NCBI GenBank assembly: GCA_021292105.1
Contig: CM037874.1
Coordinates: 8,613,653 to 8,677,652 of the forward strand
Direction: 5' to 3'
DNA length: 64,000 bases
Source: Anadara kagoshimensis
Taxonomy: Eukaryota > Mollusca > Bivalvia > Arcoida > Arcidae
Position numbers and translations under genes: made by a program. This document shows, piece after piece, positions 6,582-62,631 of this stretch. The notes under the pieces are model-generated. The model did no database searches, was not told where the DNA came from, and was given only the letters and a program-made list of their open reading frames with translations. How positions within the stretch are numbered: position 1 is the first letter of the stretch; every line of letters starts with the position of its first letter.

Positions 6582-6853
6582 TAATCAAAAAACAAACATA
6601 CTAATCTATGTCCGAATCACAATCCAGAAGAAAGTAAAAACTTTGGAACTGACAAGTTAGGTTAGACACGTGAACTCCACCAGGGAAGTGAGGCCGAGTG
6701 CTCCGGAAGGGTAAGCACCTCCTGTTTAGCTAGCTACACCCGCCACATGTGTAATCAAAATTGTGTGAAAGGAACATGGAACTATGAGACGTCAAATATA
6801 TCCAGGGCAATCCTGGACACAGAGACATCAAACTTATCAACAATACTGTGATT
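6582..6853 (-). mobile_element. Penelope-like 3' end: RT C-terminus plus tail
   Basis: Minus-strand copy that is well preserved from AATCAAAAAACAAACATAC to the coding end. The stretch at about 6795-6853 is the reverse complement of the last codons of the element's RT. Ends where an older tail begins. Confidence 0.9.
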
Positions 6854-6988: not shown

Positions 6989-9541
6989 GATTGGTAATGT
7001 TTTTATCAGTCCCTGAAGAAAAGAAAGCAATTTTACTTAATACGGTGTACACACAAAAGAATGCATGACAAAATATCTAGATAAAGCCTTCAAATCTATT
7101 CAATGTACCGTGAAAGGTAATACAGGTAATTTGTCATTTAAAACCCATCTTAAATGTTCTACCTTAATAATCTTATTTTAACTCTTTCTTCAACTTTCCG
7201 CCAAATGTTATTCTAATTAATACAATAATGTCATTGTATGAATAATAAGATAAGTTAAATGCGTTTGCACTGTAAGTTTCCGTAACAACAGTGGGCTTGG
7301 AAACATTGAAATACAGAATAACATCTACTCATGGTGGCTAAGATAAAACAGATTTGACCACCATTGCACAAAAGCTTCTGACAAAATTTAGCGGATGAAT
7401 ATCTTGCGTTTAACTATGTGTTCCCACTACGTTTGAGGTAATTATTGAGATAAAAAAAATAGTTTAGATTTTGTACATGTTGTTTAAATTACCAAATCCT
7501 TGAAACACTGGACACATTAGATCAGGTACCCATTCAAAAGTCAGAGATATTTAAGCAATGGTCCCAATATGTATATTTCATGTCTTCCCTTGTTATGTTT
7601 TATTTTGTATTTTCTTGGTGACATTTATTATCAATAGGAACAAGTTTTCAGCCACACTGATCGGTATGCTTTTTGTAATATCTGTAGATATTACAACCAA
7701 TGACCAACATAAAGTTCGATGTCATCAATACGTATTGCATTATTCAGTTATACAATGAATCAAACCATGCCTAAGGTGGACACCTCCGATAAACAGATGA
7801 TAGATCATGCTTTGTATATAGGGGCGTTGTTATGACCTTAGGTGTCAAATCATCCGTTGTTTTAACAACGACCAACTTCAAGGTCAATCCGATGCTTTCA
7901 GGTCACAGTAAATTTTGGAAAACAAAGATAGCTCTTTTTTGCATGAATGTATATAATGAACATTCAAAGTTGTTTTACATTTTTTGTGTCATGTAATATT
8001 TCTATTTCTTTCAAAAATGTAAAACAATTTATGAATTATTGATATGATATTATTTACTCGAATTTAAACATCTTTTCAAATCAATTTTAATCTAACTTCA
8101 ACCCATGACAATAATTATCGCCGATAATGAACTTATTTCGTGCATTGAGAATACAGAGTGATCCCAATACAAACTGCATACATGGAATTGTATAGAACAT
8201 ACACGCTACTACTACACTATACATTACGGCAAGAAAGATCTTACAGCGATAGTAAAGAGAGTCAATTATCATATTAAATGGTTGTTTTGTCCTTTTCTTT
8301 TGTGTTTTCAAATTTGCAATTATCAATTAAATCCTGTTTCTTTAGAGGTCTATTAATAGAGGTGTAAACAATTATCATTTCCGTTAAAGATTTCGATTTG
8401 ACTAATCTAAGGAAGTCATTCACTTTATTTGTACTTTCTTCGGATCTAAACTATTAAATCTTCATCAATCATTGTCGGCGGGGGACTCATAGATGATATT
8501 TCCAATACAATCCTTTATTTTACGTGTAGCAAAATGTTTTTATAGCAAGTACGTGGATGTTTAATCGAATGAGGATGTTTCCGCTGTGACGTAATATAAA
8601 ATCGTCTTTACGTCACTGTTCTTTGTGATAATCCATGAATATATAGATTATGCAAAATAAGAGAATGTCTGATCATTTCAATGTCCTTTAAGTTGTTGGT
8701 AAAGTTTTACCTATATATTTAAATGTATCCTTGTAGGTGAAATGGACTTGGTCGTATAGAAGAAAATTACATCAGCATTACCTTTCTTACAAATACCTAA
8801 GGCAAAACTGTGTTAGGAAAGAATTCATATAATGTAAAAACATATTCTCCGCAAAATTGTCTTTTTATGTTTTAACCCGATTAATTGCTTATTTTGAAAC
8901 AAACATTTCGTTCCCTTGATTTTAAGATGTATATTGCAAGTTACAGTATATATATGTCTTCAGAGTAATAGTTTAAAAAAATAAGATTTAACAACTTAAG
9001 ACTAACCACAGCCAAAACAATGGTCGACTCCGACAACCGAGGGGTCGACAATAATACATCAAAGACAGCATAATATCTACCCTTTCAGACAACACAAAAT
9101 CATCACTACTGAATTCAGTTTGAACAAGTTCTTTGAATTTTGCAAATTTTGATAATTCAATTATTTTCAGGTCATGTTTTCCATAACAATGCACTCAGCC
9201 TTAAAACCAAATCTTTTGATTATTTTCTTATTATCCCATTATCCTTGACATTCAAATGATAAAAATGTTAAGGATGCTTATGTGCAAATGTTTCTTTTTT
9301 TTGCCATTTCACTTCATTTCAACACATTTTGTTGATGTATGTTTAATACAGTTTAATTATCATTTGTTTTATCAACACCCAGTTCCCAGTTTTCGTTGCA
9401 CAGAATACACTAAAACTTTCTTTGAAAAATTTTATATACCTGCAACAATATGCAACTCGATGGTTTGAGTTATCTTCGTTGATCTGCAATAGTACAAATG
9501 GTTATGATTATTTTCATTGTACTGTTGTTTAAAGAAATATT
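6989..9541. other. no recognisable gene or repeat
   Basis: Nothing assignable. Open frames at 7558-7758 (+), 8087-8326 (-) and 8988-9194 (-) are 66-79 codons, hydrophobic or low-complexity, and without recognisable domains or splice context. Confidence 0.4.
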
Positions 9542-15352: not shown

Positions 15353-17131
15353 AATGTTTGAAATGTTAGTAAAGTATATCGATTACATTGCATTTTTACT
15401 GACCATGACATTATTTCAATTTAAAACTTAAAGAGCTGTAACACGTTTTTTTTTTAAATGATTGAAGCTTCTGGTAATAATGATTTGATGGCAACAATAT
15501 CATATGCCAGTGTATTTAAATTGCAATCGAAATTCCCAACAGATATACATTATAAATGTTGCTTAAAGACATTGATCATCTAAGATTTAAAAGTTTGATA
15601 AATTGGTGACACTTTTTATTAAGAGATTAATATGTCTACCAATGAGCCTATTCCATTAAAATTTTTAATTAAAAATACTATAATCAAGAATCATGTCTAA
15701 AATAAACTAAAACAAGCATTTTTCATCAAAGGAAAACCTGATATAGGAATGCTGAAGAGGCTGGCGGATCTTAAGTAGGCAGTGCCTCCTGACGCAATTA
15801 TCTCTATACATAAGATTACATAAACCGTTGCAGTAACCCATGCTTCTGTACGACGTTCTTGTCTTTAATATTAATTCATACTAATTATAGACAAAAATAA
15901 CGCCATGAAAGATATGAAACAAAATAGTATTTAGTTGTAGTGAAGTTATTTGTTGACCAACTTAATGTACATCTCCAATTAAACACAAGATAGTGAGCTA
16001 TTTTGTTTACATTTCTTGCTCTGATTCTGGTTAATCAACCCGTTTGATTCTGACTTTATCACTTAATTACATAATTTAGTCATTCCATGGCAATTAAATC
16101 ATAGTAAGAGAAAAGGACGTCAAAGTTTTTTCGCTACACAAAGATTGATATATTTGTTTTTGACTATGTTCTTTGATTCTACGAAAATTTTAATGAACAC
16201 ACACTTTTCAAAAAGAGAGATTAATTGTAGACGATTTCGTTGTAAATATTTTGCCATTGAAAGCAGAAACATTAACTAGAAAATATTTTAAAGATCTGAT
16301 AAATTCTCAAAAGTGACATTTTATGTCACAAGGGTAGTTTTGTCATGGAGCGGTCATACACAACGAAAAGCATTATCCTCATAATAAACATGGAATAAAG
16401 TTTTGTCATCTTAGTTTAGGAAGAGAAACCATGTTAACCGTTTTTGTCAATAGTTTTAAACAATAACAACCACAATTCTGAAAGTATTTGAAATAATCGG
16501 ACAAGTCTTCAATGGATTTATAACAAACGCCAATAAAATGTAATATAAAATAAAAATGAGTATATTTTGTTGTATGTAAAAGAACAGCGATAAATTGAAA
16601 ACGGTTAATGAAGTAATTGGAAACTTTTTAATTATTAATGTTCCGATCTAACATTAATGTTTATTGATAGTCATAACCTGAATATTTTATCTTTGCTAGT
16701 AATGTTTTATAATGCTACCTTGTATATATTATGTTTCCAGATTTTGAAGATATAGTAGAAATCCATTTGTGAGAAAAGTCACTTATGTGTTATGGTTCGA
16801 ATTTCATCGACGGTATCTGTTATTTGTCATAAGCCACATTTTGTCGTCCAATCTTAATACACATAAAGTTCGTATTACTATTCTCTTCCTATAAAGTTAT
16901 ATTCCATTATCACGTTCTTTAGATAGAGCTATGGGATACGTTATGATTTGATCAGGGATTGTGTTTCTAGAAAATGACACAGAGGGACAGTTTTGTTTAA
17001 ATCTATAGATATGAGAAGTGAGAAGTGTGTGATTTCCCAATGGTCAACTTTTCCTTATCGCTCAAAAATGGATTGTCCTTCCTTCTTGTATTACAGTACT
17101 TATATGTCTTTTGTCAATTCTTATTATTTTG
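15353..17131. other. no recognisable gene or repeat
   Basis: AT-rich sequence without long frames or obvious terminal repeats. Confidence 0.4.
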
Positions 17132-17467
17132 GTGTATGTGAATCAAGAAAGACTAATATGGCAATTTGGGTGTATATGAATCGAAAAAGACCTCCATAGC
17201 TATTTTGATGTATATGAATCGAGAAAGACCTCCATAGCTATTTTGATGTATATGAATCGAGAAAGACTTCCATAGCTATTTTTATGTATATGAATCGAGA
17301 AAGACTTCCATAGCTATTTTGATGTATATGAATCGAGAAAGACTTTCATAGCTATTTTGATGTATATGAATCGAGAAAGACTTCCATAGCTATTTTGATG
17401 TATATGAATCGAGAAAGACTTTCATAGCTATTTTAGTGTATGCAAAACGAGAAAGACTTTCATGGCT
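17132..17467. repeat. 38-bp minisatellite, about 9 units
   Basis: Tandem units of 38 bp beginning TGTATATGAATCGAGAAAGA and continuing CTTCCATAGCTATTTTGA. Inner units are nearly identical (CTTCC, CCTCC or CTTTC variants). The first and last units are more divergent (GTGAATCAAGAAAGAC, GCAAAACGAGAAAGAC). The unit is 12.67 codons, so the frame rotates and no protein repeat is implied. Confidence 0.96.
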
Positions 17468-31357: not shown

Positions 31358-32700
31358 TTAAATAAAATCGTTATTTAGATGAAACAAACATCAGTGTAGT
31401 TGTGTACTCTTACTCTGTCAAATAAAAACAATAACAAGTAAACAGCATAAAATAAGAATGTTGACATTACATGTTGATTTCGTAAATATTTTGAAATGTA
31501 GACAAGCTGCCGATGGTGGCACCCATATAATGTTTTAACTGTCTTGTATCAATGTGCAATTTTGAAAACAATTTTTTTATCAATTTGGATTAAGAAGTGT
31601 CATTCAGAATTATAAAACTTAAACTTTTATTTCTAACATCTTCTATAGTGCAGAAAAAACGTTCAAAACAGATATTTTGGTAATATGTCTTTTTTTTATC
31701 CAAGTCATAAATCAATACCATATATCATTATTTTTTCAATTTTTTTTGCCGCACGAGACCATACATGTTAAAAATTTTTGAAAACAAAACGGAAAAGTTA
31801 TTTAAGAAACTATCATTAAAAGTTTGCTCTTGTTTATCATGCTTTGTGGTGGAAAGGTAGGCAAGGTTTAAAACAGCCAACAGGACAGGTAATAGGTCAG
31901 ATGCAAATGGTAAACAGGCCATAATGTATTTTATATGTAAATTAACTTTCTTTCTGGGTGTGTTTAAGGTAATCTATGTATTTATATACAACACTCAAAA
32001 CTGTACTATTATTAGCAAAATGTGTGCTAAAGTTTAGAGTTCTATTTCAATGCATAAATATAAAAGTAATTTTATATGTATGCACATAGAACAATTAGTG
32101 TTTCTAAACATGTTGGAAATGTAGGTTTACAGGTTGTCATGTATTTATGCAGGTCATGAACCCAATCTTAATCTGCTTAAAGGGTCAGGTAATATTAAAT
32201 AATGTAAACTTTCACCCTCTACACAAATCTCCAATGTGGCATTTGGAATTGGTTATGATAACTTAAACATTTTTTTGTTTTTCCATAAAAAATTCAGAAA
32301 TTATCTCACTTGATGCGGCAAAAACTTTCATGGAAAATGTTATATTGGGTTTCAATTTTTAATTTGAAATGAAAAAGATATTTTACCAAAATACCTGTTT
32401 TGAACGAGTTTCCTACACTATACCATTACTAATATTACTTATTCCTATGGTAGATAAGGAAGATTTTGTAGTGAATGACTAAATAAACATTACAAATCAA
32501 ACCAAAATTCTTTGGTGTATAATATTAAGGTTTTGTTCTTGTCAATCAAGTATTGTTGAGAACTTTTTTTTTGAAAAACAAATCATTAGTTTTAGAGACA
32601 CACTAAAACAGTTTACTTAATGGGTGTTTTGGAAAGTAAACTACTAAGTAAATGTAGCTAGCTAGTTGTTATTTTAAACAATGTATGTAACTATTACATG
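31358..32700. other. no recognisable gene or repeat
   Basis: AT-rich, nothing assignable. Confidence 0.4.
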
Positions 32701-32701
32701 T

Positions 32702-32925
32702 TACACCAGTTTTAATTTTACAGCACTAGACTGCCGTTTCGGAATAATATTCCTCAACAGTAGTGCTTGGACCCAAATTGTGATTTTTTAAGAGTTTGAG
32801 GAAATGTCCAAAGGACCAAAATATATTTTATCAAATTTAGCTAAGGAAATACTTTGCATGAGGGAGTATACCATAGTTTTAAAGGAATTTCAAATTTTAT
32901 TATAATTCAATGTTTTACTTACCAA
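32702..32925 (-). mobile_element. hammerhead-bearing repeat unit
   Basis: Minus-strand unit. It has the ACTAAGGTATACTCCC-like and CATGCAAAGTATTTCC blocks, the GGTCC block, then the hammerhead and ACTGGTGTAA. The same block order occurs at 33870-34060, 48557-48930 and 61748-61945. Confidence 0.85.
32722..32767 (-). ncRNA. type I hammerhead ribozyme, one core change
   Basis: Sense on minus strand: stem I AGCACTA pairs with TAGTGCT (7 of 7). The core is CTGTTGA instead of CTGATGA. Stem II is GGAAT-ATT-ATTCC, followed by GAAAC, then a minimal stem III (AC/GU around GGCA) and GTC before the predicted cut. The A-to-T change in the invariant core should impair cleavage. Confidence 0.85.
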
Positions 32926-33869: not shown

Positions 33870-34060
33870 TGCAAAGTATTTCCTGGGTAAATGCAATCAT
33901 AATTTGGTAAAATATATTTTGGTTCTTTTATCTTTTCAACATCTTGAAAACAATTTTGGTTTTATAATTTCGGTCCAAGCACTGCTGATGAGGAATTGTA
34001 TTCCGAAACGGCCGTCTAGTACTGTAAAGTTAAAACTGGTATAATATGTAAGCTAAATTG
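33870..34060 (+). mobile_element. hammerhead-bearing repeat unit
   Basis: Plus-strand unit: CATGCAAAGTATTTCCTGG, ATATTTTGGTTCTTTT, TTTTCAACATCTTG, then the hammerhead and AAAACTGGTATAATATGTAA. Inverted relative to the unit 1.2 kb upstream. Confidence 0.87.
33978..34023 (+). ncRNA. type I hammerhead ribozyme, intact core
   Basis: CTGATGA (33985-33991), stem II GGAAT-TGT-ATTCC, GAAA, minimal stem III (AC, loop GGCC, GU) and cleavage triplet GTC (34014-34016) before T. Stem I is AGCACTG against TAGTACT: five pairs, one G-U, one C-A mismatch. All core bases of the motif are present. Short stem III is typical of the hammerheads known in Penelope-like elements and retrozymes, which usually act as dimers. 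Confidence 0.9.
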
Positions 34061-38712: not shown

Positions 38713-38920
38713 CACATTGTATTCAACGAATTTAATAAACTCAATATTACGTGAACACGAATTTATTTTTTCCATCTGTAAAGTTATTTTTTGCCTAAAC
38801 AAAAATGTATGTAAAGTCAAGCTAACTGTTAAATGACGACATAATACGTAACAACAATCGTATGATATCAATGGCTATTGATACATATGTGGTATGACAC
38901 TAGTGTAATGTATTTTAATT

Positions 38921-39272
38921 TTCTTAGCTAAATTTGGTAAAATATTTGTATTTCACAATTTAGTTAAAACACTACTAATGAGGAAATGTATTCCGAAACG
39001 ACCGTCTGGCGCTATTACATTAACATCTGTATAGTTTGTTATTTCAATCACCGGGCCGATATCTCTGTTAGCAGACAAAACATTCCGGAGGATATCATAA
39101 ACTCACAAGGCAATAAATATAAAAATCCTCAGCAACTAAGATATACACCCTCATGCAAAGTATTTCCTTAGCTAATTTGGTCAAATATATTTCGTTCCTT
39201 TGGATAGTATTTTCTTGTTAAATATTTAGGTTTGTCTATTGTTGTAAAATTAACACTGATCTTATATGTTAT
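38921..39272 (+). mobile_element. decayed hammerhead repeat dimer
   Basis: Plus strand: end of one unit, hammerhead relic at 38968-39013, inner unit (TTTCAATCACCGGGCCGATA, CATGCAAAGTATTTCC), then TTTGTCTATTGTTGTAAAAT at 39231-39250. That last stretch is the 3' side of a second hammerhead whose core is deleted. The GTC-to-GTC spacing is 230, against 330 at the 48.6-kb locus, consistent with a deletion of about 100 bases. Confidence 0.75.
38968..39013 (+). ncRNA. hammerhead ribozyme relic
   Basis: Core reads CTAATGA instead of CTGATGA. Stem II is GGAAATGTATTCC. GAAACGACCGTC is kept. Stem I 3' strand is TGGCGCT. The lost core G should abolish activity. Confidence 0.7.
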
Positions 39273-39734
39273 GACCTATTTTTTTTTTTGGGGGGGGGTG
39301 ATTATAAAATGAAAAATGCCTTAATTTTAGTATTTAGGCATTTAGCTGGTTTAAAGACTGATAACGCTAAAAATAAAGATCAATGAGGAAATAACCCTAA
39401 ATTTGTAAAGAGGTCCTGATCACTTCTCCTGTGTATACTGGTCATGGTTTTACGTTTTAAAACAAAAGTGCCTGACTGTTTCTACTGAAGCGTATTATAT
39501 CGTCGTGGCAGGGTATTACCCGGTTATCTCTATCTAAATTATATAAAGCTGCTGACAAATAAGTTGTTTACTCGATGATATTGGAAGCCTTGCCGTATCA
39601 AGGACCTACAAAGAATTTATTGCCGCCATCACATTATATTGATATGTACAATGTCTGTATTTTATTTAAAATTATTTTTTGATATATTTCAAGTCCCATA
39701 CTTCGATGTTTTTATTCTTATTTTTAATTTTACA

Positions 39735-39895
39735 TATGGCGGGCGTAGCTTGCTAAACGGGAAATACTTGTCCTTCTAGAGTCCCCTTGCATAACTTCCC
39801 CATGTGGATTTAACTCGTTTATCTAAAATGGTTAGCTTGCAAAACCTTTACGTTGTTTTTTGTGATTTGAACATGAATGTTAACATGTATTGAAA
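39735..39895 (+). mobile_element. Penelope-like 3' tail, degenerate
   Basis: Plus-strand UTR: ATGGCGGGCGTAGCTTGCTA, ACTTGTCCTTCTAGAGTCCC and AAAACCTTTACGTTG then TGTGATTTGAACATG. Confidence 0.72.
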
Positions 39896-40404
39896 AAAAC
39901 TGCATTTGGCATTAAATCGTTATGCCTGCCCATCGTATCATCAATTTAAAAGCTAACATTATCGATAATAACATAGTCACGTTAAGATTTTATTTTATTT
40001 TGTATGATCCAATCTAATGAGGGATTTGTTTAAAAATACAAATAATATCCAGATTTTCTAAAAGAAAACATTTAAATAATTTTAATATGAGAAAAAAGTC
40101 GATGACGATCGTAATTAGGATTCATTTGGATTTCAGAAGAAAAATTATAAAAGCTTTCTGTCTCTCAGTAGGTAGAGAAATCTGTTATATTGGCCATTAG
40201 TGACTCCCGTAGATATAGTCTGTTAAGATATTAATATTAAGGTGTAAGATGTATAAATAATAACTGTTTGCATATAATCTGCTTTGAGTTGATAATTAAT
40301 CGAGGTTAAATAGGTTAGACTAATATAAACCTTTGATATACTGAAATCATTTACTTTTACAAGCAATTTTAGGTTAAAAGATTTTCTATTGTTTAATTCT
40401 AACA

Positions 40405-41733
40405 GACATACACAACAAATATGTAGTTGTTTCAGCTAATAAGGCTTCCAACAACATTATTCTCCTTTGTAAGAGATTCTACCTTGAATGTTTTATTAAG
40501 GAGCTTGGGTTAGATAGTATATCAAATAACCCTGCATATACTAGAACTAATGTTACCAAAGATGAAGTTCTTTCCAATTATAGGGGAGTTCTCGAGTCTT
40601 TCGGTAGCAATCTTAAAGAGGAAGATCTTGATCTTACTTACTTGTATTGGATTCCTAAACTCCATAAAAATCCATACAAGAAAAGATATATAGCAGGCTC
40701 ATCTAAATTTACTACTAAATCATTATCGGTAACTCTAACACAAATTTTGACAATCTTCAAAGATGGTCTTCAGTCTTATTCAGAAAAAAGTATATTCTAC
40801 GTCTGGAATCAACCAAATGTGGATTTTCAAAAATTCTAAAGAATTACTTGAATATCTTGCTTCTAATACTTTATCTCATATAAACAGTATAAAACATTTG
40901 ATTTTTCTACACTATACACCACTATCCCTCATTCTAAATTGAAAGAACGTCTTAAAGAAATTATTCACTTGTCTTTCTTTTACAAAAACGGTAAGCCAAG
41001 AGACAAATATCTGGTGCTAAACAGGGATTCTGGTTATTTTGTCAAGCACTAACAAATACCATCAACAAAATGTTGGAGTTTTTGATAGATAACATATTTG
41101 TTGTTTTTGGTAAAATATTTTTTCAGCAAAAAATCGGTATACCAATGGGTACAAACTGTGCACCATTGCTTGCTAATATGTATCTTTATTCTTACGAAGC
41201 AGAATTTATGCAGAACCTTGTTAAATCCGGAGAGAAGACTGTCGCCAAATCATTCAACTCAACAGATATATAGATGACGTTCTGTCTCCTAACAATCCTA
41301 AATTTGGAGACTATGTAAATGTCATTTATCCTAGTGAGCTTGAAATAAAAAACACGACTGATCCCTCAAGTTCTGCTTCATATTTAGACTTATACCTGAA
41401 TTATGACGCACACGAAAGGCTGCATTTGAAACTTTATGACAAACGTGATGACTTCAATTTTTCTATTGTCAACTTTCCTGCTTCAATATACCTCCTTCTC
41501 CTGCTTATTGTGTATTTGTTTCCAAATTAATACGCTATGGTAGAGCTTGTTCCCACTACGGGGACTTTCTACAACGAAGTAAGCTGCTTGCAAATAAATT
41601 CTTGACTCAGGGATATTGCAAGCCTAGGCTTTTTAAGCCCCTCAAAACGTTTTATGGCCGTCATCACAGTATTGTTGATAAGTTTGATGTCTCTGTGTCC
41701 AGGATTCCCCTGGATATATTTAACGTCTCGTAG
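40405..41733 (+). pseudogene. Penelope-like reverse transcriptase, broken and 5'-truncated
   Basis: The longest transposon coding remnant in the window. In reading order I see a KYVVVSANKASNNI stretch near the start, YWIPKLHKNP (about 40645), a KTFDFSTLYTTIPHSK stretch (about 40889-40935), IGIPMGTNCAPLLAN (about 41135), the catalytic YIDD (41267-41278), SASYLDLYL and YDKRDDFNFSI. The C-terminus, near 41640-41733, contains FYGRHHSIVDKFDVSVSR and a TAG stop. The PKLHK motif, IPMGT box and YIDD suit Penelope-like RTs. Frames shift at about 40790, in the middle stretch around 40890-41070 and at about 41262, and no GIY-YIG nuclease domain is visible. It begins without a plausible start, so the 5' part is missing. 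It cannot make a working enzyme. Its 3' UTR is the parent sequence of the tails scattered over the window. A non-LTR identity is less likely; assignment to Penelope-like elements is from motifs only. Confidence 0.85.
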
Positions 41734-41936
41734 TTTCATGTTCCTTTCACACAATTTTGATTACACACGTGGCGGGTGTAGCCAGCTAAACAGGAGATGC
41801 TTACCCTTCCGGAGCATCAGGCCTCACTTCCCTGGTGGAAGTTCACGTGTCTAACCTAACTTGTCAGTTCCAAAGTTTTTACTTTGATTCTGGATTGTGA
41901 TTCGGACATGGATTAGTATGTTTGTTTTTGATTAAT
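41734..41936 (+). mobile_element. 3' UTR (tail) of the Penelope-like element
   Basis: Follows the RT stop codon and ends TATGTTTGTTTTTGATT. It contains three short hairpins: GATGCT/AGCATC (41796-41801 with 41813-41818), ACTTCC/GGAAGT (41826-41842) and CAAAGT/ACTTTG (41871-41886). This region is what recurs elsewhere, so it likely contains the 3' signal used for copying. Confidence 0.88.
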
Positions 41937-47396: not shown

Positions 47397-48556
47397 CTGT
47401 ATATTTTGTAGTTTTCCCCCGATAAGCTTACTGATAAATATACAATAATACGTATAAATACTTCCTGTACAGTGACTAAAAATTACAGCTAAAACAATAA
47501 AAATAGTTAGCGAGACAAAACCATTAGTTTTATTAAATCAAAAATTCTTTCCCTATCCGTTTTGAATGTCTAACCTATATCATAGAAGTCTCTTATCCTA
47601 CGGAATTGTAGGCAAGGTTAAAAACACATGTATTTATGTTTAAATATCCATATAAATCCATTACACAAAAAACAAAAAAGCTTTTAAAATATTTACATTA
47701 ATCAATTCTAAATAAAGCAAAATAAAACTAAATCTGGTTATAACAAAGTATAAAGTATATAAATAAAAGGGGTGTGAAAAAAGATTAGCAAATTACGTTA
47801 TAATGTCAAAAAAACCCAAAACGTTTATTATTTCTGTTTGATTGGAGATGTCCATTTTATCTCATGTTATGTATTAGACCTTTTCAAATGGAATAAAGGA
47901 CATGGATATATGCGTTATGTAATCAGTATATCTTGTCAAAGCATTTCAAAAAGACACATTTCATCACGATATGATTAAATATTTAAATTCACTGATTCTG
48001 AAAATATACCTACTAATTAGATAAATAGATAAGAAGTTTTCATTAAACTTATATAGTCACGATTTTGTTGGAATGATGATGAATTTCGTTGTAGGCGTAT
48101 TGCCATTGCTATGGAACATTTTCATATTATAATGGTCCAAAATGTATCAATGTATTTTCCAACTGATCTTTATAACGAAGGAGGCTCAGTGGTTTGAATT
48201 GATTTCTTAAGAATCACAGGTTCTTTTGCTACCTGAAATCAAATCCTATTTGATACGATAAAAAGTTTCAATTAATCAAGAAACAGAAAATCCTGGTACA
48301 TTAAACAGTTTGCACTTTATTTTTCTATCTTATTAAGAATGTTTTATTTTGTAGTTTTACGCGTTTTTTGTTTTTACTTTATAAGGTCATAATCACGGGT
48401 ATAGGCCGTCTAGTGTTTTGAGAACTTAATATATTGTTGCAAACGCCATGATCTACATATGGGTAGTCTTAACAATTGCAATTTGATAATATATATCACA
48501 TAAATATATTTATTAATATAGCATTATGCTTGTGTTGTTGGTGCTGTTGTGAATTA
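47397..48556. other. no recognisable gene or repeat
   Basis: Nothing assignable before the hammerhead unit. Confidence 0.4.
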
Positions 48557-48930
48557 CATATTATACCAGTTTATTTTACATCACTAGACGACCGTTTCGG
48601 AATACAATTCCTCATCAGTAGTGCTTGGACCAAAATTATGAAACCAAAAATGTTTTCATGATGTTGAAAAGATACTCAAAAGACCAACAAATATATCTTA
48701 CCAAATTTAGCTAAGTACTAAATACTTTGCATGAGGCACTATACCTTAGTTTTTAAAGAATTTCAAATTTTAGCTAGCAGCAAATTTAAACAATAGTATA
48801 TTTCTGACAATAATACACAGTTATTGCCGACTGAGTTTGAGGCACCAGCTACCAGCAGAGATATCGGCTCAATGGTTGAAATTACATATTATACCAGTTT
48901 TAAATTTACAGCACTAGACGGCCGTTTCGG
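48557..48930 (-). mobile_element. hammerhead repeat dimer (330-nt unit)
   Basis: On the minus strand a 3' half of a hammerhead (about 48905-48940) is followed by a full unit and then an intact hammerhead (48580-48625). Predicted cut sites after the two GTC triplets lie at 48917/48916 and 48587/48586, so the unit is 330 nt. Inner landmarks, in minus-strand sense: CCGATATCTCTGCTGG, CATGCAAAGTATTTAG and TTTTGGTCCAAGC. No protein frame. Self-cleaving tandem units of this size are known from retrozymes and from Penelope-like terminal repeats. Confidence 0.88.
48580..48625 (-). ncRNA. type I hammerhead ribozyme, intact core
   Basis: Minus-strand sense: stem I AGCACTA with TAGTGAT (6 of 7 pairs), core CTGATGA (48612-48618), stem II GGAAT-TGT-ATTCC, GAAA, stem III of AC/GU closing loop GGTC, then GTC before T. 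All core positions match the motif. The best candidate in the window for real cleavage. Confidence 0.92.
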
Positions 48931-48940
48931 AATACAATTT
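48905..48940 (-). ncRNA. partial hammerhead ribozyme
   Basis: Keeps ATTGTATTCCGAAACGG, CCGTC and TAGTGCTG but the CTGATGA half is replaced by unrelated sequence. It cannot cleave alone. Confidence 0.75.
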
Positions 48941-50712: not shown

Positions 50713-51018
50713 GAAAGTTAAAGTTAAAGTCTGTCCCGAGCCATTAGGCCCATCAGGCCGGAGCTTATCCCGGTTTCTGTGGCGTTAAGCGACTGAGAGT
50801 ACAAGACTCTCCCCTGAATGGGACGCCGGTCCATCGCAGGGTTAACCCCCCCCCCTCCCAGCATTTTGCTGGTACTCATTTATTTTTCAGCTGAGTGAAC
50901 TGGAACAACGTGAAATTAAGTGTCTTGCTCAAGGACACAACACATCGCCCGGTCCAGGGATCGAACCCACGACCTTCGAATCATGAGTCCAATGCCTTAA
51001 CCACTAGGCACGCGCTTC
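50713..51018 (-). mobile_element. tRNA-derived SINE
   Basis: Minus strand starts at about 51018 with GCGTGCCTAGTGGTTAAGGC (box A) and has GGTTCGATCCC (box B) about 35 bases on. The body includes GTGTCCTTGAGCAAGACAC, CAGCAAAATGCTGGGAG and GGACCGGCGTCCC. It ends in (AACTTT)-type repeats near 50713-50730. I recall this body as widespread in molluscs. Much more GC-rich than its surroundings. Confidence 0.87.
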
Positions 51019-54365: not shown

Positions 54366-54462
54366 TCAATCCCAAAAGCAAAGTAAACACTTTGAAATAA
54401 ATACTGTACCAGTGTTAATTTTACAGCACTAGAGGGTCGTTTACGAATACAATTGAATACTA
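54366..54462 (-). mobile_element. tail end joined to hammerhead relic
   Basis: AATCCCAAAAGCAAAG-type tail text (54366-54396) is followed after about 10 bases by ACCAGTGTTAATTTTACAGC, i.e. the minus-strand hammerhead unit. The ribozyme part (about 54424-54462) has CTC instead of GTC at the cleavage triplet and a damaged GAAA, so it is dead. Confidence 0.62.
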
Positions 54463-57149: not shown

Positions 57150-57418
57150 AAAATGGAGTTTGATGTCTCTGTGTCCAGGATTGCCCTGGATATTTTTGAC
57201 GTTTCATAGTTCCATGTTCCTTTTACACAATTTTGATTACACACGTGGCGGGTGTAGCTAGCTAAACAGGAGGTGCTTACCCTTCCGGAGCACCCGGCCT
57301 CACTTTCCTGATGGAAGTTCACGTGTATAACCTAACTTGTCAGTTCCAAAGTTTTTACTTTGCTTCTGGATTGTGATTCGGATATGGATTAGTATGTTTG
57401 TTTTTGATTGCAAAACTG
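57150..57418 (+). mobile_element. Penelope-like 3' end, near consensus
   Basis: Starts in the RT C-terminus (GTGGAGTTTGATGTC-like, 57150s), passes GTGTCCAGGATTGCCCTGG and the UTR with all hairpins, and ends TATGTTTGTTTTTGATT. Followed within a few bases by a hammerhead relic in the same orientation. Confidence 0.93.
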
Positions 57419-57454
57419 ATGATTAATTGTATTTCAAAACGACCGTCTAGTGCT
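57409..57454 (+). ncRNA. hammerhead ribozyme relic
   Basis: CTGATGA (57416-57422) is intact, but stem II is TTAATTGTATTTC, GAAA has become AAAA, and the stem I 5' strand is replaced by GCAAAA. GACCGTC and TAGTGCT are kept. Probably inactive. Confidence 0.72.
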
Positions 57455-57775
57455 GCAAAGTTAGAATAGTTAAAGTAAAAATGTGTACATTACACCGGAT
57501 AAAAATTCTTATTACCAAATAACATGTTTAAGTTAATTATAAATATTTAAGTACCTGTAATTTCATTCCAAAATGCAATTTTATCTGATAAAATGGAATT
57601 ATTATTATGACAAATGTCTGTCTGAGAATAATAGTACCACAAATATCATTAACAATAAACTGTTTTGTGGAATTCATTATATAATTAAAAATTGATAATT
57701 TGTAAGCAAATTTAAAGAAGATTTATTTTTTAGCAACGTCAGTGTATTACTCAAAGCCTTCTATATTAATAACGG

Positions 57776-61108: not shown

Positions 61109-61212
61109 AGTATTTAACTTTTATCAAGGCGGTAAGTATTTAACTTTTATCAAGGCGGTAAGTATTTAACTTTTATCAAGGCGGTAAGTATTTAACTTTT
61201 ATCAAGGCGGTA
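61109..61212. repeat. 26-bp minisatellite, 4 identical units
   Basis: Four perfect units starting AGTATTTAACTTTTATCAAG and ending GCGGTA. Perfect identity suggests a very recent expansion. Confidence 0.97.
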
Positions 61213-61474
61213 AGTTCATGGAAAGTGAATCAAATCGGAATCTCGAGAGAAAACCACTTACTTTCGGAACTAATGACACAATGTTATTCGAATCTAGACG
61301 ATGTATCTGTTATAATAGCATATTTTATTTTACTATTAAATAACAATAAACTTTCATGCTTGTTACAAATATGTGCAAATTAATAGTTTTGGCATATTAG
61401 AAATAATTCGAATAGAAACAATATGATTGTGAATTCATTCTAATAAATAATTTGTTCGTGTATTACCCTAATTA

Positions 61475-61747: not shown

Positions 61748-61945
61748 AAAAAACTAAGGTATTCTCCCTCATGCAAAGTATTTCTTAGATAAATGTGGTT
61801 GAATACATTTTGGTTCTTTGGTTATTTTTTCAACATCTTGAAAACATTTTGGTTTCATAAGTTTTGCCCAAGCACTACTGATATATATAGGAATTGTATT
61901 TTAAAACGGCCGTCTAGGGCTGTTAAATTAAAACTGGTATAATGT
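61748..61945 (+). mobile_element. hammerhead-bearing repeat unit, decayed ribozyme
   Basis: ACTAAGGTATTCTCCCTCAT, GCAAAGTATTTCTTAG, TTTTCAACATCTTGAAAAC, then a ribozyme relic at 61871-61921 and AAAACTGGTATAATGTG. The relic has CTGAT followed by an AT-repeat insertion and AAAA for GAAA, so it is inactive. Confidence 0.82.
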
Positions 61946-62631
61946 GTAATGTCTTCTGAACTACAGAAACACTTCAAAACGTACAACACTAACACATGTT
62001 GTATATAGGGTAATATATAAGTATAAATTAACTGTGGAGCGAATACATATTGAATATTGACTTCACAGTATGCCAGAATATAAAACGATTGTAATGTGTA
62101 AACAACAGAAAATGCACCGAATGCCACAAATACCCTCAATGGCACTTGATAATGTAAAAATATAAGTCGTTAATGAATAAGTAAGGTATTGGTCTTTTTC
62201 ATCTATCGTGTTGCCATGGTCACACCTACTCAATTTGTAACAGTTTAAGTATCAAAAACGTGTAACTCGCTTTTACAATATTGTGTTATTATGTTTACGT
62301 GTCCGGAAATTAGTATTCATACGTGCTAACAGAGATCGAGACCACCGAGTGCAAAAAATGACAGATATGGAAGTTAATTTGCATCATATTGTGGGTTTTC
62401 ATAATTTGTTATTAAGCATTAGGATCAATTTATGTCTTTCATGTTTCTTATATGTGTTTCATTTTTGCATCATATTGTTGTTTTTTTTTCACTTTGAGTT
62501 TAAGAGTTTCAACCTTCTCCATTCGAAATTGATGTTTACTAAAAATAAACCTTCCTGCTTCAATTTTTTTATTTTAAAGCAATTTGACGCCTTTAGTATT
62601 AACATGTTAGAAAATATTGGACGATTCTAAA

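Follow-up and report, generated by a model that had tools for sequence, protein, structure and literature searches.

The anatomy of animal retrozymes has been described for mussels, corals and the axolotl (PMC7229834). For the mussel genome around 5000 type I hammerheads are reported, usually lying in repeats of 350-390 bp that are expressed as circles, and a stem III of two pairs closed by a tetraloop is given as the invertebrate form of the ribozyme (PMC7229834). The same source names Penelope-like elements as a strong candidate for moving animal retrozymes. The enzyme of one such element, of a type that has been termed telomerase-like, starts reverse transcription internally, 111-118 nt into the ORF, with the hammerhead cut lying 26 nt in, and genomic copies of the element end at such internal start sites (PMC11167929). 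Hammerhead cleavage is reported there to be dispensable for insertion in vitro, so that an uncut multimer stays possible as a template.

What, then, is the nature of a bivalve repeat that carries a hammerhead of this type, and what do its ends say about the way in which it was copied? The window considered here (the whole stretch of Anadara kagoshimensis DNA that was analysed, 64,000 nucleotides) holds a family of repeats that are very probably decayed non-LTR retrozymes of about 330 bp, non-coding and equipped with a type I hammerhead, for which a copying cycle is proposed below. The hammerhead itself is ordinary for elements of the retrozyme type.

The hammerhead at 48580-48625

The feature under study is as follows.

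48580 to 48625, minus strand: hammerhead A, core at 48587-48618, read in the sequence, recovered by a descriptor scan and matched over its full length by RF00163 at 19.6 bits

Read on the minus strand from 48625 to 48580, hammerhead A consists of CTGATGA, a 5-bp stem II with the three-nucleotide loop TGT (GGAAT/TGT/ATTCC), GAAA, a stem III made of an A-U and a C-G pair with the loop GGTC, the trinucleotide GTC and finally TAGTGAT, and its stem I has 6 of 7 pairs, of which five are consecutive and are followed by a mismatch and one further pair. The elements that define a type I hammerhead, namely CUGANGA, GAA, the A15.1-U16.1 pair and H17 within three helices of which stem I is open, are all present, and cleavage is predicted between 48587 and 48586. 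The original prediction had placed a type I hammerhead with every core position on the minus strand, and both the sequence and the descriptor scan bear this out; its 5-bp stem II with the TGT loop, its two-pair stem III and a stem I paired at 6 of 7 positions all read as described. A complete type I hammerhead core inside repeat DNA is confirmed at this position.

Scoring against Rfam turned out less favourably for the original prediction, which had looked to a covariance-model hit above threshold. The gathering score of RF00163 (Hammerhead_1) is 34 bits, a curated cut-off and not a biochemical feature, and both intact hammerheads of the window fall below it: hammerhead A gives a full-length match of 19.6 bits (E 0.019 in a 201-base scan), and the second one, copy C, a full-length match of 29.0 bits (E 1.6e-5 against 4227 families). 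A scan of the entire window at gathering level returned no Rfam match, and a 2-kb scan did not list copy C, probably through filter loss. The score and E value of copy C make the identification of the family firm. Exact motif patterns had 0 matches in IMG/VR viral contigs and 0 in GTDB prokaryote genomes, collections that are uninformative on animals.

Copies of the repeat in the window

A mismatch scan finds eight copies of the hammerhead region at seven loci, dispersed through the window on both strands, in agreement with the earlier claim of repeat DNA. Whole-unit BLAST (E up to 1e-4) revealed no new locus and added only the second unit of locus E. The tandem partner of hammerhead A at 48917, 330 bp away, the intact copy at 34.0 kb and the remaining copies go beyond what had been described before. 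The loci are:

48552 to 48939, minus strand: tandem locus A+B, a 5'-truncated copy B followed by one full 330-bp unit (repeat spacing 328-330, unit BLAST)
33901 to 34051, plus strand: copy C, the second intact hammerhead (BLAST bounds; by eye the 5' end may lie at ~33862)
32693 to 32899, minus strand: copy D, with the broken core CTGTTGA and a stem I that still has 7/7 pairs
38910 to 39272, plus strand: locus E, two decayed units in tandem, the first with the core CTAATGA
57410 to 57477, plus strand: copy F, a short decayed fragment starting at the hammerhead, its core broken after stem II
61749 to 61953, plus strand: copy G, in which an insertion (CTGATATATATAGG) disrupts the core
54392 to 54454, minus strand: copy H, a fragment that begins at the same stem II point as copy B

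Within locus A+B, copy B begins inside stem II and has its cut-site equivalent at 48917/48916, while the full unit, 48916-48587, ends in hammerhead A; a further 35 nt, reaching +37 in the numbering of the unit, follow the cut. From cut site to cut site, B and A are exactly 330 bp apart. The GC content of the unit is 0.327, below the 45-50% that is the limit for retrozymes, which is weak evidence since the window itself has 27-36% GC in 2-kb steps. Three ORFs overlap the locus, of 30-61 codons and none longer, as befits a repeat that does not code for protein. Tandem arrangement of type I hammerhead repeats in the ~150-450 bp size range of metazoan retrozymes is seen at two of the seven loci, A+B and E; just one complete hammerhead is present in A+B and none in E, where, judging the alignment by eye, little is left of the hammerhead in the second unit.

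In copy C the core occupies 33985-34016, with the cut predicted after 34016. Cores are intact in A and C (2/8); those of D, E, F and G are broken, and B and H have lost theirs by 5' truncation. Divergence of the copies from a leave-one-out majority ranges from 1.7 to 27%, and the two with intact cores are the least diverged among the long copies, at 5.3 and 5.4%. By arithmetic from these divergences, plain decay over 13 core positions would be expected to leave about 1.4 of six cores intact, and with two observed no selective constraint is needed on single copies; the core of copy A is still intact because this copy is little diverged.

In the majority sequence of the family 7/7 positions of stem I and 5/5 of stem II are paired. 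Stem III together with its loop has the sequence ACGGCCGT, which is palindromic over 8 nt, and two ribozymes pairing through it would share a stem III of 8 bp. Copies B, C and G (3/8) have this palindrome in perfect form; in A it pairs at 8/8 positions with wobbles, and it is weaker elsewhere, with 6/8 in D, E and F and 4/8 in H. Support is gained in this way for the suggestion, made at the outset, that this is a hammerhead of retrozyme type in which stem III is very short, as the palindrome, wobbles in A included, fits dimer action.

Folding energies were computed for monomer, dimer and circle. The minimum-energy folding of hammerhead A is unremarkable (z -0.67, with 48 of 200 shuffles folding equally well), and ViennaRNA prefers a structure in which part of the core is paired with CGUC at the cut site. 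The monomeric hammerhead fold comes to -1.1 kcal/mol against an energy minimum of -10.0 in A, and to -0.8 against -10.1 in C. As a dimer hammerhead, A reaches -12.8 (-18.8 without end pairs), where two monomers have -20.0 and the best cofold has -25.5; C reaches -20.5 (-21.9 in a constrained fold without stem I), where the corresponding values are -20.2 and -25.7. Thermodynamic support for the monomer or the dimer hammerhead was not obtained in copies A and C, and, despite an energy model that omits tertiary contacts, the calculated values stand against easy cleavage; self-cleavage of hammerhead A is possible. The circular form, folded from one decayed unit, is not unusually stable (60 of 200 shuffles are at least as stable), a highly self-paired circle being a reported trait of retrozymes that PMC7229834, in the part consulted, does not require.

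Insert ends and a proposed copying cycle

The ends of the copies are best expressed on a circular 330-bp unit numbered from the cut. In this numbering BLAST places the 3' ends at +37 in A, +35 in C, +36 in D, +39 in G and +41 in H, and in the alignment the second unit of locus E stops, as judged by eye, near +36. Copy F is too decayed, its end falling at +19 or +30 depending on the scoring scheme. A second alignment method left the ends of A, C, G and H unchanged and gave +47 instead of +36 for D. The 3' ends lie at +35 to +41 in 6 of the 7 loci that make up the sample, or in 5 of 7 without D. Animal retrozymes with a fixed 3' end were not seen reported in the literature searched, which was largely open-access and, apart from the papers cited here, screened as listings.

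The 5' starts vary. BLAST gives unit positions 308 for B and for H, 293 or 298 for F, 233 or 261 for E, 210 for C, 163 for G and 145 for D, with three of the seven starts lying inside the hammerhead. The tandem loci A+B and E run on beyond +41, enter a second unit and stop there at the common 3' end, and the cut junction is read through without a gap in all eight copies. Target-site duplications of retrozymes, when present, exceed 4 bp; at six loci (E left out) no such duplication was better than chance (p 0.13 to 0.84), with 5' bounds that are uncertain. As an observation on the shortest inserts, B (48939) and H (54454) both begin at 308 in stem II and F at 293/298, in the manner of a reverse-transcription stop at a hairpin; the cases are few.

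Together, 3' ends at +35 to +41, varying 5' starts and read-through of the junction suggest reverse transcription from a fixed internal site. The gapless passage across the cut junction argues that the template was not a linear, hammerhead-cut RNA, and either a closed circle or an uncut multimer could have served. The more specific proposal, that copying starts at a fixed internal position about 37 nt 3' of the cut on closed or uncut RNA, as for the Penelope-like enzyme, and that loci A+B and E arose from the copying of a circle or multimer, is advanced tentatively and falls a little short of probable.

In the cycle envisaged, transcripts reading through tandem copies would bring the palindromic stem III of neighbouring hammerheads into pairing, generating a dimeric ribozyme that would cut after GTC. 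The resulting unit-length RNA would be closed into a circle by a host RNA ligase, a step that is taken from the literature. A reverse transcriptase acting in trans, most likely a Penelope-like one, would start ~37 nt past the cut site, pass the closed or uncut junction and sometimes span more than one unit, the circle being a presumed intermediate. Inserts produced in this fashion would all stop at one 3' position, begin at differing 5' positions and now and then be tandem, which is the end pattern of the small sample in the window. If true, the 3' ends of animal retrozymes would point to their mobilising enzyme, and if the fixed 3' end holds genome-wide, the question of that enzyme would become testable from sequence alone together with an in vitro priming assay.

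Reverse transcriptase sequences and other repeats

Animal genomes with retrozymes are expected to contain Penelope-like elements as well. The window holds remnants of a reverse transcriptase (RT) element.

40378 to 41733, plus strand: broken reverse transcriptase fragments in ORFs with PKLHK, GIPMG and YIDD motifs, possibly of Penelope/telomerase type

The best PDB match of the piece at 40995-41270 is a telomerase RT (E 0.0023), followed by an unrelated chain at E 0.013, which gives a weak hint of a Penelope-like enzyme. A second RT piece matched only unrelated proteins in PDB, at E 0.075 or worse, and Pfam searches with six RT pieces yielded RVT_1 (E 0.04) and the unrelated Big_8 (E 0.056), both below the cut-off, with four pieces without a match. 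A scan for GIY-YIG-like motifs had a sole match, YIGKT, which is isolated at 8703-8717 on the minus strand with a stop soon after. The RT fragments are a candidate relative of the enzyme that would move the repeats, on circumstantial grounds.

A repeat of ~200 bp resembling the tail of the RT element occurs, for example, at 41731-41935, 57207-57409, 6582-6784 and 2336-2536. BLAST with this tail gives 37 rows besides the query and 32 merged stretches in the window, query included; 22 of the 37 rows end at query positions 193-207, and the RT element likewise seems to have a fixed 3' end. Likeness of the tail to the 3' end of the retrozyme repeat was looked for by eye and none was seen. The tail bears a likeness to mussel repeats, which, like the low GC of the window, suggests a bivalve source. 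An association of the retrozyme copies with these tails (B, E, F, G and H by eye) was considered and rejected as being at chance level, with 4 of 7 copies within 300 bp against 3.0 expected and 3 of 7 within 100 bp against 2.0 expected; the apparent association arises because there are 32 merged tail stretches in the window. The segment 41651-42210 is made up of 5'-truncated tandem copies of the RT element's 3' end with ~276-bp spacing, and partial tandems are described for Penelope-like elements (PMC11167929).

Other repeats of the window include a SINE-like sequence at 50740-51010 on the minus strand (extent by eye), whose tRNA-like part at 50954-51009 scores 26.1 bits against RF00005, for which the cut-off is 29. 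There is also a minisatellite at 17125-17467, in which a 38-bp unit is present nine times (91% match), and at 61109-61215 a 26-bp unit is repeated 4.1 times at 100% match, probably a recent event.

Alternative explanations

The RT fragments bear on the alternative that survives best, although it is improbable, namely that the repeats are not a separate retrozyme but fragments of a pseudo-LTR that belongs to an autonomous Penelope-like element with a minimal hammerhead. The short stem III, with no clear loop-loop contact by inspection, is as in Penelope-like hammerheads, which according to the consulted part of a review may act as dimers, and the possibly Penelope-like RT pieces have locus E 1.1 kb upstream of them on the same strand, a placement that a pseudo-LTR would explain. 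However, a further RT-element tail fragment (39722-39878) intervenes between the two, on the downstream side of the RT locus, the one such locus in the window, there is no hammerhead copy before 48.5 kb, and the nearness of copies to RT-element tails is at chance level. Moreover, two loci are tandems joined at an identical junction, the A+B unit is 330 bp long with ORFs of at most 61 codons, and stem III has two pairs here, whereas the same part of the review describes Penelope-like elements as usually lacking helix III.

Less likely still is the possibility that the family is tandem satellite DNA spread as DNA, with the hammerhead a fossil without present use. Copies scattered over both strands that share their 3' end and differ in their 5' ends show the pattern of reverse transcription, and no array in the window reaches two full units, even if the 330-bp tandem, the divergence of 1.7 to 27% and a core intact in just 2/8 copies would suit a satellite. 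Chance resemblance to a hammerhead has a negligible probability: a looser core pattern is at chance level (13 matches against a shuffle mean of 10.3, with 38 of 100 shuffles reaching 13) and the Rfam cut-off is not reached, but the strict type I descriptor, drawn up post hoc once the motif had been seen, finds two cores in the window (hammerhead A and 33985-34016 on the plus strand) against two in total across 300 simulated order-2 Markov windows, the E value of copy C makes chance very unlikely, and pairing is better in the majority sequence than in A or C, the copies whose cores are intact.

Comparison with known systems

As probable decayed retrozymes, the repeats are most readily set beside the non-LTR retrozymes of Mytilus galloprovincialis (Cervera and de la Pena 2020, PMC7229834), with which they share a type I hammerhead, low GC, short tandems of a unit that measures a few hundred bp and has no long ORF, and a loop-loop contact that is not obvious by inspection. 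The unit of 330 bp differs from the 350-390 bp of the mussel, a comparison made with the published description only, and the common 3' end seen here has no mention for the mussel retrozymes in the part of PMC7229834 consulted. The satellite hammerheads of newt and axolotl (PMC7229834) are similar in their ~330 bp unit, weak stem III and palindromic loop suited to dimer cleavage; they differ in being vertebrate, in the very large copy number of the axolotl and in the single-pair stem III of HHR_Amex1. With the minimal hammerheads of Penelope-like elements, such as Poseidon of Anolis (PMC11167929), the likeness extends to a type I core with a stem III that is weak or missing, and, for Poseidon, to an RT start site downstream of the ribozyme cut, a geometry resembling that of the fixed 3' end here. 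In contrast to the unit here, which is without a long ORF, Poseidon is a coding element whose hammerhead overlaps the start of the ORF. Eight copies at seven loci and a 330-bp tandem give the family an anatomy that, as far as it can be read from the DNA, is that of the metazoan non-LTR retrozymes, an already known kind.
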